Of a DNA stretch of 33,601 nucleotides, positions 6,656 through 15,054 are shown piece after piece (within the stretch, counting starts at the first letter, position 1; each line of letters starts with the position of its first letter). The translations under genes and the position numbers were made by a program. The notes under the pieces are model-generated. The model was not told the origin of the DNA. It searched no databases and worked only from the letters and a program-made list of their open reading frames with translations. Origin of the DNA: Tissierellaceae bacterium. GTDB taxonomy: Bacteria > Bacillota > Clostridia > Tissierellales > Tissierellaceae. Location: positions 1 through 33,601 of the forward strand of contig JARIDA010000020.1 in NCBI GenBank assembly GCA_029257065.1. Reading direction: 5' to 3'.

Positions 6656-9600
6656 ATGGGGATAAAGAGAATTTATTATGGACCATTTAACAATTCAAAA
6701 TCAGAAGAATTTTATAGTACAGTGTTAGAAAAAATAAAGAATGGAAAAGAAGAAAACTTTTATTATATATTGCCAAATGGAAAACTTTTGACCACCTATC
6801 GTGAGAAGATTATAGAGTCATTAGGTGGTTTTTTAAATTTAAATCTATTTACTTTTGATGATGTTGTAAAAGAAATACTTAAAGATGAAAATCATATAGA
6901 AATAGACGAAAATACAAAAAAAATAATCTTGACGAAAATAGTTAGAGAATCCAAATTAGATTATTTTAAAAATGTATCGGATCTATCTGGATTTATAAAA
7001 ACTTTGGGAAATATTATAGGTGAAATAAAAAGATCTATAGTAATTCCAGAAGAATTTATAAAATTATCTCCTAAAAACATATTATATAAAGAAATAGGAT
7101 CTATTTATATGGAATATGAAAAATATTTAAAAGATAGAAAATTAGTGGATAGAGAAGGTCAGTATATTTTAGCAGTTAAGAAATTGAAAGAGAATGTGAG
7201 TTTCCTATCCAATATAGAAGAAATAATTATAGATCAATTTTATAATTTCAGACCTATTGAACTGGAGATATTAAAAGAGATTAGTAAAAGTAAGATTGAT
7301 GTGCATATAAATATTCCATTTAGGAAAGTAATTGATTTAGGAATAATAAAGAACACATTGGAAAGTTTAAAGGAAATAGGTTTTACCTTGGAGAAAATGG
7401 ATTTGGGTAAAGAGAATAAATTGGAAGAAGTATTTTTTTTAGAAGAAGAATACGAAGAGATAGAAAATATAAATTTAAATATAATTCAAGCAGCTACAAT
7501 GGATTTAGAAATAAAAAAGGTATTTGAAAAAATAAAAAATAAAATAAATGAAGGATATAAATACTCAGATATCCTTATAGTTCCAATGGATGATGAATAC
7601 AAAGAAAAGATAGGGAAGAGATCTATAGTTGAAAAGTTACCTATTAGTATTCAGATACAGGATAAGATGATTAATAATAATTTTATATTGGAAATATTAG
7701 AATTATTTCTTATGAAAATCAATAATAATAAAAACTCCATATTAAACAGATTTCAAAACAAATATTTTATTAATAATCAAGGTCCAAATTTAGAATATGA
7801 TATATATCCTTTTTTGAAAAAAATAGATTTTGACAATTTAGAAGAATTATTAGAAGAGATTAGTAAAAAAAAGGAATTTGAGTTAGAAACTGATTCTATA
7901 GATTATTTAATTTATGAATTAGAAGAAATAGAAAAAGAAGTATCAGATTTGAAATTAGAAAATACTATTAAAAATTACAATCAATATATAAGAAATCTTA
8001 TGGAAAGATACAGTATTGGAACAAAGATAAATTCTATAATGAGATATTCAGAAGAAAAATTTTATATAGAAATGAAAAGTTATATAAGATTATATGAAAT
8101 ATTAGAAGAGATAGAAATACTATCCGAAATATTGGGTCTAATATCTATAGATGATTATTATGAATTACTTTTATCAAAACTAGAAGAAGAGATCACTTTA
8201 ATCCCAGGGAATGCTAAAGGGATACAAATATTAGATTTAATTGATATAAGGGGTATAGATTATAAGATAGCATATATAATAGGTCTTTCCGAAAATAATT
8301 ATCCAAATATAGAAGAGGATAATTTCTTTATAAATGAAAGGAATTATAAAAATCTTAAGTCAATGAATATAGATGTTAAAAACTACACATATAAACTAGA
8401 AAATGAAATAATAAAGTTTTCAACACTGATTTCATGTGTAAAAGAAGAGTTGAATTTTACTTATAGCAAGGGAATAGATGATGAATCTATTGCATCTATG
8501 TTTTTAGATGAAATAATCAGGATATGTGAAAAAGATATTAAATATATTGATGTATCATTTGAATATATGATTAAAGAGAATATAGATGAAATAACTACTA
8601 ATAAAGAACTATCAGATTATATTTTAAAATTAAATTATAAAGATAATGAAGTAAACAAAGATTACATATCATATCACAATTCAATTTATCCTGAGAAATT
8701 CAAAAGAATACAGGATAAGATAGATTCGGATTATAATAGAAGTCTAAAGACATTTACTAAATATAGTGGAATATTATCTGAGAGTAGAGAAATAACTAGA
8801 GAATTAGAGAAGATGCATAAAAACAAAGTGTATTCCAGTAGTTATTTAGAGAGATATATTAATTGTCCATTTAGTTTTTTAATGGGAAGGATATTTAAAG
8901 TTGATGAATATATAGAAGAAATAAAAGAGTATGATCCAATGTTAATAGGAAATATTTATCATTCTGTTTTAAAAGATTTTTATGAATTATATAGGATAAA
9001 GATTAAAGAATATGTAATTTCAGATAAAGACTTGGAATTGGAGGATAAAAAAGATTTCATATTAGATTTAATATTGAAATATGGGTCAGAAGATGGATTA
9101 GATTTAAATAGTAGAAAAAGTCAATTGTTAGTAGAAGATATAAATAATAAGATTTTCAACTTTATAAAAAATGATATAGAAAGAATTAAAAATCATGGTC
9201 TAATACCAATTAAATTTGAACAAGAGTTTGGATATGAGCAAAAAATGGCTATATATGAGGATAATAAAGAGTTATTACTTAATGGCAAGATAGATAGAAT
9301 AGATAGGACAAAGGATAGTAAAAGCATAATAATGGACTACAAAAGTGGTTCTTCTGGTATAGCCAATTTGAATTCCATTGAGGAGGGTTATTCATTACAA
9401 ATACCTATATACTTATTAGCTGAAAAGGATAATAATCCAGTAGCAGCATTATATGGAATTATAAATCAGAATGAGTTTAGAATTACTCTTGGAGTTTTAG
9501 GAGAAACAAGTATTATAACAAATAGACATGGTGGAAAATTAGAATCTATGGAAGAATTAGAAAATATAACCAAAAATACAGAAAAAATTATATTTCAAAT

Positions 9601-9712
9601 AGAGAGAAAAATTCTAAATGGAGAATTTCCAATTGAGCCTTATAATTGTCCAGATTATTGTTTATATAAAGACATATGTAGATATAGAAAGCAGGTGGAA
9701 ATAGAGATATGA
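6656..9712 (+). CDS. addB: AddB-like helicase-nuclease subunit (PD-(D/E)XK nuclease with Fe-S cysteines)
   Basis: Subunit of the AddAB complex that resects double-strand breaks for RecA. It has 1018 residues, a little shorter than B. subtilis AddB. The N-terminal helicase-like half begins YYGPFNNSKSEEF where a Walker A would be expected; the GxxGxGKT consensus is lost, so ATP binding here is doubtful. The C-terminal nuclease domain starts at SSSYLERYINCPFSF and includes GNIYHSVLKDFYELY, LLNGKIDRIDR and IIMDYKSG (PD-(D/E)XK residues), then SLQIPIYLLA. Four cysteines, Cys737 and C-x3-C-x5-C at 998/1002/1008 (CPDYCLYKDIC), fit the AddB iron-sulfur staple. It overlaps addA by four bases (ATGA), implying translational coupling. 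Confidence 0.92.
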   Translation: MGIKRIYYGPFNNSKSEEFYSTVLEKIKNGKEENFYYILPNGKLLTTYREKIIESLGGFLNLNLFTFDDVVKEILKDENHIEIDENTKKIILTKIVRESKLDYFKNVSDLSGFIKTLGNIIGEIKRSIVIPEEFIKLSPKNILYKEIGSIYMEYEKYLKDRKLVDREGQYILAVKKLKENVSFLSNIEEIIIDQFYNFRPIELEILKEISKSKIDVHINIPFRKVIDLGIIKNTLESLKEIGFTLEKMDLGKENKLEEVFFLEEEYEEIENINLNIIQAATMDLEIKKVFEKIKNKINEGYKYSDILIVPMDDEYKEKIGKRSIVEKLPISIQIQDKMINNNFILEILELFLMKINNNKNSILNRFQNKYFINNQGPNLEYDIYPFLKKIDFDNLEELLEEISKKKEFELETDSIDYLIYELEEIEKEVSDLKLENTIKNYNQYIRNLMERYSIGTKINSIMRYSEEKFYIEMKSYIRLYEILEEIEILSEILGLISIDDYYELLLSKLEEEITLIPGNAKGIQILDLIDIRGIDYKIAYIIGLSENNYPNIEEDNFFINERNYKNLKSMNIDVKNYTYKLENEIIKFSTLISCVKEELNFTYSKGIDDESIASMFLDEIIRICEKDIKYIDVSFEYMIKENIDEITTNKELSDYILKLNYKDNEVNKDYISYHNSIYPEKFKRIQDKIDSDYNRSLKTFTKYSGILSESREITRELEKMHKNKVYSSSYLERYINCPFSFLMGRIFKVDEYIEEIKEYDPMLIGNIYHSVLKDFYELYRIKIKEYVISDKDLELEDKKDFILDLILKYGSEDGLDLNSRKSQLLVEDINNKIFNFIKNDIERIKNHGLIPIKFEQEFGYEQKMAIYEDNKELLLNGKIDRIDRTKDSKSIIMDYKSGSSGIANLNSIEEGYSLQIPIYLLAEKDNNPVAALYGIINQNEFRITLGVLGETSIITNRHGGKLESMEELENITKNTEKIIFQIERKILNGEFPIEPYNCPDYCLYKDICRYRKQVEIEI

Positions 9713-12700
9713 AGTTAAATAAGAATCAAAAACTAGCCATAGAGATAATAGATGAAAACTTATTGGTTAATGCAGGTGCAGGGACAGGTAAAACCATGGT
9801 CTTAGTTGAAAGGTATCTAAATATATTGGAAAATGGGAAATTAGAAAAAGGGAAAGAAATTGAATCAATAGTTGCCATAACATTTACTAAAAAAGCTGCT
9901 CAAGAAATGATAGAAAGAATAAGAGAGAAGTTACGAGAGAAATATACTGAAGATGAAAAATGGAGAAGTTTATATAGAGATATTGGAAAATCTAATATAT
10001 CTACTATACACAGTTTTTGTTCTCGAATATTAAGAGAAAATCCTATAGCTGCAAATATAGATCCTATGTTTGAAATACTTGAAGATATAGAAGCTGAAAA
10101 GATACTTAAAAGTTCAATTATGGATATTTTATCTAATAAGATAGAGAGTGAATTAGATTTATACAAATTATATTCGGAATTAGAGGCTAGTACAATATCT
10201 AGTTTAATAGATGATTTTTATTATCTATATAACAATATAAGAAATACAGGTGAAGATTTAGAAAAACTAAAAAATAAATATATGAAAAATATTAAACAAC
10301 TAGATATGGATCTAAATGATCTAGATGAAATTATAAAATTAGTAAACTATTTAATGGAAAGCTTAAGGTCAAATGCTAAGATAAATAATCTATTAAATGA
10401 AGAATTATGGATTGGCTTTTCAAAAGGTGATTATGAGAAAAAGGATTTAAAAGATATTTTAAATTTAATATTAAAAAACTTAGGAACATCTAAGCCATAT
10501 GCAGAAGCCATAGAAAAATTAAAAAACACTATAAATAAGGTGTTTAAGTCATTTGAAATGGAAAACATAAAATTATACAAACTAATAATGGACATAATAA
10601 TAGAGATAGACTTATCCTATAGCAAGAAAAAAAGAGAACTATCTGTTTTAGACTATGATGATTTACAATTAAAAGTATTGAGTTTATTGGATAATAAAGA
10701 TATTAAGAGGGAATATCAAAATAAATATAGATATATTATGATAGATGAATTTCAGGATATAAATAAAATACAAAAAGATATATTTTATAAATTAAGTAGT
10801 AAAAAAGAAGATTTGGATAGGAATAATTTATTTGTAGTAGGAGATCCAAAACAATCTATATATGGATTTAGAGGTTCAGATTTAAATGTTTTTTATCAGG
10901 TTCTAGAAGATATAAGAGAATTAAAAGATGAAAATATAATAACACTGGATGATAACTATAGAACCTCTAGTAATATTATGAAATTCATAAACAATATATT
11001 TACCAATCTTATGGGAGAGAGATATAATAAATTAAAGTCTAATATAGAATCTAAAAAAAATATATCAATTGAGGTGTTAGAATCTGATGAACTAGAAATA
11101 CCAAAGGATATTAGTCCTGCAGAATATTCAAGATCTTTTGAAGCGAATTTAATATCCACTAGAATAAGAGATTTAGTTGATTCGGGAAAATATAATTATG
11201 GTGATATAGCATTATTATTTAGATCTACAAAAAGAGACTATATATATGAAGAATCCTTTAAAAAATATAATATACCCTATTATAATACAGGGGGAAGAGG
11301 ATATTTTCAAAGACAGGAAATTCTGGATATTATAAATGCTTTCAAAGCAGTTGTAAGTCCAAAAGATCTTATATCAAATATAGGTTTTTTAAGATCACCC
11401 ATGATAGGTTTATCTGACATTCAAATATATAATATAATGAGAGAAGATGGTAGTATATATGAGAAATTAAAATCTAAATTATTAAAAAGCAAATCCGGAG
11501 AAGAGGAAATATTTAAGATATTTAAAATATATGAATATTTATATGATTATAAAAATTATCATACAAATTCTGATTTAATAGAAGAAATATTAAATATTAC
11601 TGATTATAGAGAATTATTATTATTGAAAAATGAAAGTAGACAATCTATAGCAAATTTGGATAAATTTATCCAACTAATTAAAGATTTTGAATTCATGAGA
11701 AAAGATGAGTCAATAGATATTTTAGAATATATAGAAGAATTGAAAAATCGAGATGAATCTCAAGCAAAAGTAGAATCTGAAAGAGAAAATGTTGTCAAAA
11801 TAATGACTATACATAAATCCAAGGGTCTTGAATATCCTGTAATAATAATACCAGAAATGTCTAGCGGGAGTTTTACAGATAATTCTAAAATAAACTTTCA
11901 CAAAGATATTGGGATTGGATTGAAATTGAGAGATTCCAGTGGTATATATGATGAAATCAAAGAATTACAAAAAGTAGAGGAATATGAAGAAGATAAGAGA
12001 ATTCTATATGTGGCTATGACAAGAGCAGAAGAATTGTTGATATTAGGTATGCAAGGTGCTAATAGAGGATTTAAAAAAATGTTGAATAAATATATAGAAG
12101 ATGAAGAGGTAAAAAAAATACAAAGAATTATTTCTAATGACGGAGAAAACTTACAGGTTAAAAAGATAAAAGAGGAATATTTTCTGGAAAATAGTATAAT
12201 AAAGAAACCAGGAAATATATTTGAAGATAAAAACTTTAGCAATCAAATAATAGATAAATTTAGCATAACACAATTTTTAACATTTAAGGAATGTGAAAGA
12301 AAATACTTTTTCAAATATTATAAAAAATTAGATAAAATGGAAAATCTATTAAAATCAGAAGATGGTGAAGAATTAATTCTAGATTCAAATGAATTAGAAA
12401 TAAATAAAAATTCTGAAATGGATCCTTTTACAAAAGGAAATATTGTTCATGAGTTTACTGAGCTTTATGAACCTGGAATGGACCATATTAAGCTCTTATC
12501 TGACATTGCCTATAAATATAATGTGGACTATATAAGAGAAAAATTTGAACTAGAAATATATATAAATAATTTTCTAGAGCAATACAGTGATTCTTATGAT
12601 AAAGTATATAAGGAAAAAAACTTTATGTTAAAATTAAATAATGGAATATTTACAGGTGCTATAGATAGAATAAATATAGAGAAGAATTATTTGGAGATAA

Positions 12701-13008
12701 TAGATTATAAAACTAATATACTCTTTGATAAGGAACATCTATTGGAAATATATTCTCCACAATTACAGTTTTATTCTTATGTGGTAAAAGTAATATTAAA
12801 TAAAAAAGTAGATAAAGCTAAATTAGTTTTTTTAAAAACAGGAGAAGTTTTAGAAGTGGATATTAGTGATTCAAAAATAGAGAAGTTGATAGATGAATTA
12901 GTCAGTTTTGTTAATTTTGTTCAAAATAATCATAATAGAATTGATTATCAGTGTAAAACAAATTGTGATAAAAAATGTCCATATGATACAATCTGTAAAC
13001 GAGAATAA
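9709..13008 (+). CDS. addA: AddA-like ATP-dependent helicase-nuclease subunit
   Basis: UvrD/RecB-type helicase plus nuclease, partner of AddB in break resection. It has 1099 residues, shorter than the usual 1200-1270. Walker A is NAGAGTGKT (21-29); motif Ia is AITFTKKAAQEM; motif II is IMIDEFQD near 346; then VVGDPKQSIYGFRGSD, VKIMTIHKSKGLEYPVII, and RILYVAMTRAEE (motif VI). The C-terminal nuclease has GNIVHEFTELYE, TGAIDRI and LEIIDYKTN. Unusually, it also has Cys862 in FKECERKYFF and a terminal C-x3-C-x3-C-x5-C (1082, 1086, 1090, 1096), the same layout as the Fe-S staple of AddB. I infer a second Fe-S cluster. SD AGGTGG lies within addB. Confidence 0.94.
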   Translation: MKLNKNQKLAIEIIDENLLVNAGAGTGKTMVLVERYLNILENGKLEKGKEIESIVAITFTKKAAQEMIERIREKLREKYTEDEKWRSLYRDIGKSNISTIHSFCSRILRENPIAANIDPMFEILEDIEAEKILKSSIMDILSNKIESELDLYKLYSELEASTISSLIDDFYYLYNNIRNTGEDLEKLKNKYMKNIKQLDMDLNDLDEIIKLVNYLMESLRSNAKINNLLNEELWIGFSKGDYEKKDLKDILNLILKNLGTSKPYAEAIEKLKNTINKVFKSFEMENIKLYKLIMDIIIEIDLSYSKKKRELSVLDYDDLQLKVLSLLDNKDIKREYQNKYRYIMIDEFQDINKIQKDIFYKLSSKKEDLDRNNLFVVGDPKQSIYGFRGSDLNVFYQVLEDIRELKDENIITLDDNYRTSSNIMKFINNIFTNLMGERYNKLKSNIESKKNISIEVLESDELEIPKDISPAEYSRSFEANLISTRIRDLVDSGKYNYGDIALLFRSTKRDYIYEESFKKYNIPYYNTGGRGYFQRQEILDIINAFKAVVSPKDLISNIGFLRSPMIGLSDIQIYNIMREDGSIYEKLKSKLLKSKSGEEEIFKIFKIYEYLYDYKNYHTNSDLIEEILNITDYRELLLLKNESRQSIANLDKFIQLIKDFEFMRKDESIDILEYIEELKNRDESQAKVESERENVVKIMTIHKSKGLEYPVIIIPEMSSGSFTDNSKINFHKDIGIGLKLRDSSGIYDEIKELQKVEEYEEDKRILYVAMTRAEELLILGMQGANRGFKKMLNKYIEDEEVKKIQRIISNDGENLQVKKIKEEYFLENSIIKKPGNIFEDKNFSNQIIDKFSITQFLTFKECERKYFFKYYKKLDKMENLLKSEDGEELILDSNELEINKNSEMDPFTKGNIVHEFTELYEPGMDHIKLLSDIAYKYNVDYIREKFELEIYINNFLEQYSDSYDKVYKEKNFMLKLNNGIFTGAIDRINIEKNYLEIIDYKTNILFDKEHLLEIYSPQLQFYSYVVKVILNKKVDKAKLVFLKTGEVLEVDISDSKIEKLIDELVSFVNFVQNNHNRIDYQCKTNCDKKCPYDTICKRE

Positions 13009-13237: not shown

Positions 13238-13248
13238 GGATGTTAAAT

Positions 13249-15054
13249 ATGAAAAAAAATAAAATATTTATATTGGTACTAATAATTTTATTGTTAGCAC
13301 CAATATCTTCATTAGCAAAAAAAAATTCAAAAAAAGTTATAATTTTTTCTATAGATTCTATTTCAATGGAAAATATTAAGGAGTTAGAAATTGATAATTA
13401 TGGAATAGGATTATTCAATTCTAAAAGTAGAAAACCTTATAATGAAAAAAACCTGTATACAAGTATTAATATAGGAAGAAAGATATCTAGAGAAAAATTA
13501 GTAGAAGAGGCAAAACTTGAATATATGGGAGATATTTTAAAAGAAGAAAATCCTGTCTATATAGGAGATCAAAATAGCAATATAAAACTATTAATTAGTG
13601 ACAAAAATGATAAGGCAAATGGTATAAATCATATAGAATATGATTATGAATGGTTGGATAAAAATATAAAGAAATTATTATTAGAATCAAAATTAGTGGC
13701 TTTAGATTATAGAATATTAGATCAAAAAAATAGACTTGAAATATTAAAAAAGTTAATATATCAAAATAGAGATAATTTAATATATATAATACCTAGAACA
13801 GTTCACAAATCTGATAAAATGTATGTAAATCAGTATCTATTGCCAATATTGAAAATAGATAAAACTAATGGTGTCTTAATGAGCAGTTCTACAAAAAGAG
13901 AAAGTTTAATAGCCTTAGAAGATATATCTTTTGATATTAAAGAGAATTTTAAAAAAGAAAATAAATTTAGCATTGGGAAAAGTATAGAAATAGAAAACAA
14001 ATCTAATAATTTAAAGGATATTGAGCAGATTTATAAAAAGAGTATAAATATGTTATATATATCCTATATATTTCATGGAATATTATACTTGTCCCAAGGA
14101 TTAATTCTAATCTATTTATTGACAAATAGATTGAGAAAAATAGCTATAAGTACTTTTATATTTACTACTAATAATATTTGGATAACTTTAATAATGTCAC
14201 TAATAGATATCCAATATAATTTATTATTGTATTTAATATTAATAATTATAATAAATACTCTTATCACAAAAGAAATGATAAAAAATAATAAATATGTAGA
14301 AAAATCAATAGTTTTAACCTACTTTTTAATTGTATTAGGTATATTGTTTAAAACGGAATTAATATATAACTCTTATATTGGATATAATAATTTAATATAT
14401 GGAGCAAGATATTATGGATTTAATAATGGTATAGCAGCAGTTCTATTAGCATCTTCAATATTTACAATTATAAAAGTGGATGATTATATTAATAGTGAAA
14501 AGCTTAAAAAAATTCTTATTGCTACAATTCCAATAATTAATTTAATATGTTTATCCACAAATTTTGGTGCAAATACTGGAGCTTTCATATCTGCCATAAT
14601 ATTATTAATATTAATATATTATAACTATTTGTTTTCAAGTAAAATAAATATAAAAACTTTAATAATTTTTATTATAATTGGAATTACTATTTTTGCAATA
14701 AATATTTATTATGATAGTATAAGCTTGAATAAGAGTCATGCTATTCAATTTTTTGAAAGAATAAAATTGAATGGATTTGGAGAAATATACTATATGGTTA
14801 CTTTTAAGTTGAAAGAGCTTATTAAACTTACTATTATGCCACCATTTTCAATAGTCTTAATATGCCAATTTATTATATTGAAAAAATTGTTTGTAAGAAA
14901 TCATATAGGTATTAAAATAATGCTTATTGTATCTTTAGTAGGATTTATTATAAATGATACAGGAAATATATTGTTAGTATATATGTTGAATTATTTAATA
15001 CTAGCTTTATTAATAAAAAATGAGTATATTAAGAATACAATTGTTAAGATTTAG
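13249..15054 (+). CDS. polytopic membrane protein with N-terminal alkaline-phosphatase-like ectodomain (degenerate), unknown role
   Basis: 601 residues from ATG 13249, eight bases after SD AAGGA that overlaps the previous stop. The first 23 residues form a signal peptide (FILVLIILLLAPISSLA). Residues about 25-260 form an extracellular domain beginning KKVIIFSIDSISMENI and containing GVLMSSSTKRESLIALEDIS. As I recall, this pattern matches a Firmicutes family whose N-terminus has the alkaline phosphatase/sulfatase fold (TSPSTRRPGLV-type block before the metal site). The metal-binding Asp/His set is not clearly preserved. About ten membrane segments follow, with the block YGARYYGFNNG corresponding to GARYYGIGNEYMG of that family, and GFIINDTGN near the end. 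The function is unknown; an envelope role is plausible. Confidence 0.7.
   Translation: MKKNKIFILVLIILLLAPISSLAKKNSKKVIIFSIDSISMENIKELEIDNYGIGLFNSKSRKPYNEKNLYTSINIGRKISREKLVEEAKLEYMGDILKEENPVYIGDQNSNIKLLISDKNDKANGINHIEYDYEWLDKNIKKLLLESKLVALDYRILDQKNRLEILKKLIYQNRDNLIYIIPRTVHKSDKMYVNQYLLPILKIDKTNGVLMSSSTKRESLIALEDISFDIKENFKKENKFSIGKSIEIENKSNNLKDIEQIYKKSINMLYISYIFHGILYLSQGLILIYLLTNRLRKIAISTFIFTTNNIWITLIMSLIDIQYNLLLYLILIIIINTLITKEMIKNNKYVEKSIVLTYFLIVLGILFKTELIYNSYIGYNNLIYGARYYGFNNGIAAVLLASSIFTIIKVDDYINSEKLKKILIATIPIINLICLSTNFGANTGAFISAIILLILIYYNYLFSSKINIKTLIIFIIIGITIFAINIYYDSISLNKSHAIQFFERIKLNGFGEIYYMVTFKLKELIKLTIMPPFSIVLICQFIILKKLFVRNHIGIKIMLIVSLVGFIINDTGNILLVYMLNYLILALLIKNEYIKNTIVKI

Follow-up and report, generated by a model that had tools for sequence, protein, structure and literature searches.

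The AddAB locus of the window

We analysed a stretch of 33,601 nucleotides from a Tissierellaceae bacterium (contig JARIDA010000020.1, our contig C120, in a genome of 1.73 Mb in 129 contigs; hereafter the window), which encodes an AddAB enzyme whose two subunits both end in a nuclease with the four-cysteine layout of an iron staple. Resection of DNA breaks in many Gram-positive bacteria is mainly the work of AddAB, and mechanistic models of this enzyme rest on the Bacillus complex with its single iron-sulfur (Fe-S) cluster. All features described here lie on the + strand. AddB (6656..9712, 1018 residues) combines an ADDB_N domain (PF21445, 66.8 bits, cut-off 26.6) with a C-terminal PDDEXK_1 iron-staple nuclease (PF12705, 102.1 bits, cut-off 22). 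Its stop overlaps by four bases (9709-9712) the start of the AddA-like subunit (9709..13008, 1099 residues), which consists of a UvrD-type motor and a C-terminal iron-staple nuclease and which exceeded the cut-offs of PF00580, PF13361 and PF12705 in a Pfam scan. The AddA nuclease domain, residues 846-1099 (12244..13005), covers positions 2 to 247 of the 247 positions of PF12705.

Both window proteins fall far under the Bacillus-type NCBIfam cut-offs: AddB scores 108.4 bits against TIGR02773 (cut-off 903.7), and AddA scores 339.5 bits against TIGR02785, addA_Gpos (cut-off 707.65), and is therefore not filed under that equivalog. The protein is nevertheless an AddA in the broad sense, with a UvrD-type superfamily 1 motor, a C-terminal RecB-family nuclease and an adjoining, co-inherited AddB.

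The cysteines of AddB lie at residues 594, 624, 737, 998, 1002 and 1008. As the earlier note on this DNA had proposed, Cys737 (8864..8866) and the C-terminal C-x3-C-x5-C of Cys998, Cys1002 and Cys1008 (9647..9679) form the AddB staple set; the triad corresponds to C1121, C1124 and C1130 of B. subtilis AddB, numbered by counting along the 3u44_B sequence. AddA has cysteines at residues 104, 862, 1082, 1086, 1090 and 1096, and its tail reads C-x3-C-x3-C-x5-C, three residues short of the stop. The layout of AddB recurs here as Cys862 (12292..12294, in FKECERKYF) with Cys1086 (12964..12966), Cys1090 (12976..12978) and Cys1096 (12994..12996), so that the shared four-cysteine pattern claimed for the two subunits holds, both by residue position and by the alignment of relatives described below. 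The tail itself is as the note had read it, with one correction: Cys1082 (12952..12954), which we considered as a ligand, stands outside the staple, as the window alone has a cysteine there (1/25 aligned sequences).

When the six AddA cysteines were placed at random, C-x2/3-C-x5-C arose anywhere in the protein in 39 of 200000 draws, a figure that leaves conservation out of the count; for the AddB cysteines it arose in 48 of 200000. An assembly error is unlikely because the isolates Tissierella pigra, Tissierella simiarum and Anaerosalibacter bizertensis share the cysteine layout.

Conservation of the AddA staple

We scanned contigs for AddA. A scan with the single AddA protein gave no match, and one with alignment A1 gave 49 loci. 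Across a 25-sequence alignment that includes the window, Cys862, Cys1090 and Cys1096 are present in 22/25, and the same 22 sequences carry the remaining staple cysteine, 19 of them at column 1086 and three one residue off (C-x2-C). The other three (L027, L030 and L032) are classic AddA proteins and lack all four. An alignment of the window AddA and 26 relatives taken from titled genome records gave Cys862 in 27/27, Cys1090 in 27/27 and Cys1096 in 26/27 (L059 ends early); column 1086 is a cysteine in 24/27, the remaining three (L054, L055 and L058) reading C-x2-C in place of C-x3-C. The alignment thus does not show the poor conservation among close relatives that would have spoken against a staple. 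The rows of A2 and A3 came from a scan keyed to the nuclease motif of staple AddA (a pattern without cysteine), and their conservation alone is therefore no unbiased count.

A broader set comprised 184 non-redundant AddA sequences drawn from the order, the class and the phylum, scored with the tail triad relaxed to C-x2-5-C-x3-7-C; partial AddA sequences (L025, L026, L037 and L161), copies with identical last 300 residues, and L060-L074 and L076-L081 were dropped. Cys862 and the triad are both present in 89 of these sequences and both absent from 92, so that the two are concordant in 181/184. The three discordant proteins (L040, L059 and L247) have Cys862 alone, in frames that end early, before or inside the triad. 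A TAG is reported inside the AddA gene of genome G102, the genome of L083, which has the same frame.

A single metal site shared by the four cysteines would be expected to give just such an all-or-none pattern across many lineages. The pattern also bears on the idea that the staple is a functionless relic, inherited and removable without effect. The catalytic residues H914, E969, D986, D999 and K1001 (H-E-D-D-K) are intact in 184/184 sequences, and several losses of the staple have done them no visible harm, as a relic would allow. Neutral decay, by contrast, should leave many partial sets; the four cysteines are instead kept or lost as a unit over long distances (the 181/184 above), and the triad persists even where its first cysteine stands at a different distance. 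We therefore regard a relic as very improbable.

Classic AddA proteins differ at the same place, ending directly behind the nuclease core, where the window AddA runs on for about 49 residues. Among 30 of them, which are the 30 top-scoring loci returned and no random draw, the triad is missing in 30/30, and the tail of the upstream frame has it. The window AddA and L075 cover PF12705 from position 1 or 2 to 247, and three classic AddA proteins cover it from 27-29 to 186-188.

Predicted structure of the AddA nuclease

We then compared predicted models of AddA with known structures. The model of full-length AddA (predicted local distance difference test, pLDDT, 79.9) has the AddA chains of the 3u44, 4cei and 4cej entries as its top four structural matches; the closest, 3u44_A (B. 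subtilis AddA), matches with Z 32.7 and aligns up to model residue 1050, which pairs with 1232, the last residue of that chain. Residues 1051-1099 (12859..13005), a helix and the cysteine triad, form a C-terminal extension that is missing in B. subtilis-type AddA. The window enzyme thus resembles the B. subtilis complex in the UvrD-type motor of AddA, in the RecB-family nuclease ending both subunits and in the AddB cysteine triad, and differs in that the B. subtilis AddA stops 49 residues sooner and that classic AddA proteins have no staple.

For the model of the nuclease domain (residues 846-1099, pLDDT 86.8), the proteins that align over the whole length are a different group. The best match of the domain is AdnA of mycobacterial AdnAB (6ppr, 9np6), with Z 17.2 and root-mean-square deviation (rmsd) 3.2 over 220 residues of 9np6_A, tied with all matches within 1 Z of it. 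End-to-end alignments were also obtained with the Cas4-family protein ACE1 (9iac_B, Z 15.5, 219 residues), 3L0A (Z 14.0), Cas4 (8d3l_I, Z 13.3, 180 residues), Exo5 (7lwa_A, Z 12.9, 161 residues) and Dna2 (5eaw_A, Z 12.5, 218 residues). Against AddB of B. subtilis (3u44_B, Z 15.0, rmsd 3.5, 226 residues), model positions 1-254 align with 783-1133, which places Cys1090 and Cys1096 of AddA in register with C1124 and C1130 of AddB, as read from the range ends (254/1133) and not from a superposition. By contrast, the alignment with B. subtilis AddA (4cei_A, Z 16.2, 170 residues) ends at model residue 205 and that with E. coli RecB at residue 221. The domain thus has the marks of an iron-staple RecB-family nuclease: the four-cysteine layout, the catalytic residues and, in the predicted model, a RecB-type fold with a tail that reaches the staple.

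The likeness to AdnA has limits. AdnA carries an Fe-S cluster, but it corresponds to AddB and not to AddA, and AdnAB has UvrD-type motor domains in both subunits; the window AddB has ADDB_N and PDDEXK_1 only in Pfam, with no UvrD domain match. Dna2, Bad, Exo5, Cas4 and ACE1 work with other helicases or partners, or with none. Fusions of a UvrD-like 3'-5' helicase to a Cas4-like (pfam12705) nuclease resemble AddA in their make-up, but in the available portion of PMC5704561 they occur in type III restriction-modification or Dcm contexts or stand alone, with an AddB partner unmentioned there, unlike the window AddA, which adjoins a co-inherited AddB.

The nature of the AddA site

From these observations we consider it probable that the AddAB of the window is a divergent one with an iron-staple RecB-family nuclease at the end of both subunits, and that the AddA cysteines hold one cluster, most likely [4Fe-4S], with a structural role as in AddB. 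The cluster would be bound by Cys862, where the nuclease begins, together with Cys1086, Cys1090 and Cys1096 in the tail; it would pin the C-terminal tail back onto the start of the domain and so keep the AddA nuclease folded. Such a folding role has been described for AddB, Bad and Dna2 in the available parts of PMC7430649, PMC3466216 and PMC7311471. The site would bind Fe-S rather than zinc and act mainly as a structural element; a redox role, if any, would be argued by analogy. The two nucleases would act on the strands assigned in B. subtilis, AddA on the 3' strand and AddB on the 5' strand.

Several points weigh against a cluster in AddA. The last 19 residues of AddA are modelled with modest confidence (blocks of 56 and 50 in the full-length model), and the two final blocks of the nuclease-domain model have 74 and 68. 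Some lineages keep Cys1 with an unusual tail, C-x2-C-x3-C in five genomes of family code f149 (L208, L209, L210, L214 and L215) and C-x2-C-x4-C in three of f55 (L162-L164); these may have a different site, and the 181/184 count includes them. The cluster type also differs among relatives, the Cas4 protein Pcal_0546 having [2Fe-2S] according to the part of PMC4176176 available. Finally, the four-cysteine site of 3L0A is reported with zinc in the crystal, in the accessible text of PMC3466216.

This last point raises the alternative that the AddA cysteines bind zinc, or zinc or iron depending on the lineage, as a structural staple with no Fe-S cluster. 3L0A, also a RecB-type nuclease, has its four cysteines arranged in the same way and is a good structural match to our domain, and the departures of some AddA tails from C-x2/3-C-x5-C would also suit this idea. 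The same accessible text, however, has the authors of PMC3466216 saying that the zinc may be artefactual, and AddB, Dna2, Cas4 and Bad, which share the layout, are described as Fe-S proteins, with four cysteines in Dna2, Bad and Cas4 (PMC7430649 and PMC3466216, as far as available). We therefore judge zinc unlikely and favour an Fe-S cluster.

According to the available part of PMC7430649, iron-staple domains are rare, AddB being the first example. Among the matches listed from the AddAB and Fe-S nuclease literature, available in part, no mention of an AddA staple appeared; Yeeles 2009, the 2014 AddAB structure paper and the AdnAB papers lie outside that coverage, and an earlier mention is possible.

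AddA types and the partner AddB

A tree of the motor domain separates the classic AddA rows from a second type (type II, 133 rows) that holds all 92 rows with Cys862. On a tree of 91 AddB rows, built from frames of 780-1300 residues only and without L143 (whose upstream frame is not AddB), the AddA type needs just two changes, from which we conclude that AddA and AddB are inherited together. Both trees were made with FastTree and carry long-branch warnings. They support the proposal that the dual-staple enzyme is a distinct AddAB architecture: its AddA belongs to a type that stands apart from the Bacillus one and appears to be co-inherited with its AddB.

We next compared the staple state of the two subunits, using a relaxed AddB triad (C-x2-14-C-x4-7-C). 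Among 91 full-length AddB proteins, 53 stand beside a staple AddA, and 52 of these have Cys1 and the triad; in the other, L225, a run of N masks the tail. Beside staple-less type-II AddA there are 22 AddB proteins, of which 15 keep Cys1 and the triad, six have lost all of them and one (L230) has Cys1 without the full triad. Cys1 and the triad are also kept in the two AddB proteins beside early-ending AddA frames and in 14/14 type-I AddB. Where both subunits could be read, a predicted AddA staple thus never occurs without one in AddB, and AddA alone can be staple-less. The six AddB-sized frames without any staple cysteine all belong to family code f4 (L113, L118, L120, L122, L124 and L148) and lie beside staple-less AddA, apparently as cluster-free AddAB.

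Six loci were candidates for a staple AddA with a staple-less AddB. For L014 and L017 a staple AddB lies in a longer stretch of the same genome (L047 and L168), the AddB of L255 has the triad, and L225 is the masked tail noted above. In the stretches scanned upstream of the staple AddA genes L049 and L095 (~5.4 and 1.5 kb), no AddB-like frame was found; there AddB therefore does not adjoin AddA, or was overlooked. L049 belongs to a [Clostridium] ultunense record, and the lack of an AddB-like frame there, upstream of 5472, is unlike most other loci.

A further difference lies at the other end of AddB. The Walker A motif GxxxxGK[ST] occurs within the first 90 residues in 7/14 type-I AddB proteins, and in the same segment it was found in 0/78 type-II AddB proteins, the window included (6656-6925), a count in which some type-II frames have a truncated or prolonged 5' end. 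The nucleotide site may be lost entirely from AddB of type II.

Distribution across genomes

In a sample of the phylum, 115 of 299 genomes match the staple-AddA profile at 1e-80, and in the same sample 167/299 have an AddA over the Bacillus-type cut-off. Reading the cysteines in 57 of the 115 gave 40 genomes with the staple (21 family codes), 16 with none and one, G765, with Cys1 in an early-ending frame. With relaxed spacing, staple AddA is therefore present in at least 40/299 phylum genomes. Some of the other 58 belong to the 30 classic AddA proteins, with matches that stop between profile positions 723 and 815. Some family codes, such as f4 and f110, contain both AddA types, which suggests that the gene pair moves between lineages.

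Outside the phylum, Acidobacteriota metagenome-assembled genomes (Pyrinomonadaceae; L060, L065 and L067) have a staple-tailed AddA and a staple-tailed AddB on the same strand; a script found the Cys1 pattern in L065 and L067 and not in L060. The Acidobacteriota sample held 119 genomes, 35 with a match; of the 20 loci listed, 11 have the triad, five have none and in four the tail lies outside the stretch. An AddB-like frame was seen beside only some of these loci. In the Chloroflexota sample (151 genomes, 18 loci) the triad pattern was found in 0/18. Seven of these loci encode short proteins of UvrD type (718-835 residues), and six have a same-strand AddB-like frame that carries the triad; one locus, L300, from the genome that served as centre of the sample, combines a Cys1-like motif with tail cysteines of other spacing and is a possible variant staple.

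The Pyrinomonadaceae are generally regarded as aerobic soil bacteria. The suggestion that two clusters are perhaps common in anaerobes is unsupported as stated, because the AddA staple is found in Acidobacteriota and is missing from 31/33 type-II AddA rows of f4, a family of the same order as the window.

Loss and ancestry of the AddA staple

Besides these f4 rows, the type-II rows of f146 and of f104/f178/f193 also lack the staple. With 55 rows, the approximately unbiased test rejected both a single clade of all staple rows (p-AU 0.010) and a single clade of all staple-less type-II rows (p-AU 3e-5), the groups having been named after the trees were seen. The AddA staple has thus disappeared repeatedly, its four cysteines going together.

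Parsimony on 95 chosen rows with a PcrA outgroup requires 11 changes at equal costs with a staple-bearing root, against 13 otherwise, and therefore favours an ancestral AddA staple that would have been lost in the Bacillus lineage. The 100-row tree consists of hand-chosen rows and has weak support at the deep forks. The Bacillus complex is probably a derived form and not the baseline.

An alternative origin is a domain exchange, in which AddA took over the nuclease of AddB, of Cas4 or of a UvrD-Cas4 protein. The staple AddA nuclease profile is indeed strongly similar to that of the type-II AddB nuclease (score 217 over 240 columns), and there are proteins of UvrD type that carry a staple-like nuclease and have no AddB match in the stretch scanned. 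Per column, however, the same profile scores higher with the nuclease of classic AddA (197/165 columns) and with that of staple-less type-II AddA (304 over 221 columns). Several staple-less type-II AddA proteins also retain the sequence around the lost first cysteine, and the lower cost of a staple-bearing root on the motor tree points the same way. We consider an exchange improbable, slightly more so than a zinc site, and prefer descent with repeated loss.

A wider proposal, which we put forward tentatively and which could well prove wrong, is that the dual-staple AddAB is ancestral and spans at least two phyla, and that the Bacillus form is derived by loss of one cluster. In dual-staple bacteria both nucleases would then need a supply of Fe-S clusters, and the repair of breaks on both strands would be tied to iron or redox state.

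The four-cysteine feature of AddA is real and well conserved, and it marks a variant form of AddAB, not a machine of a new kind. The sequences point to the two-staple AddAB as a widespread, little-noticed version of a well-studied enzyme, one that the curated AddA model leaves below its cut-off. If many lineages carry two clusters, the Bacillus form cannot represent all AddAB enzymes, and enzymes that have two staples, one or apparently none then offer a natural series for studying the part of the cluster in nuclease stability, in strand choice and in the Chi switch.

Other genes

A second UvrD-like protein of about 1000 residues is encoded in the same genome on contig C87 (L004 and L005), with no AddB-like match in the stretch scanned. 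In the window, the gene 3' of AddA (13240-15054) gave no Pfam match at E 0.5 and no NCBIfam match at 0.001; it encodes a 604-residue protein that has a signal-like N-terminus and is rich in hydrophobic segments.

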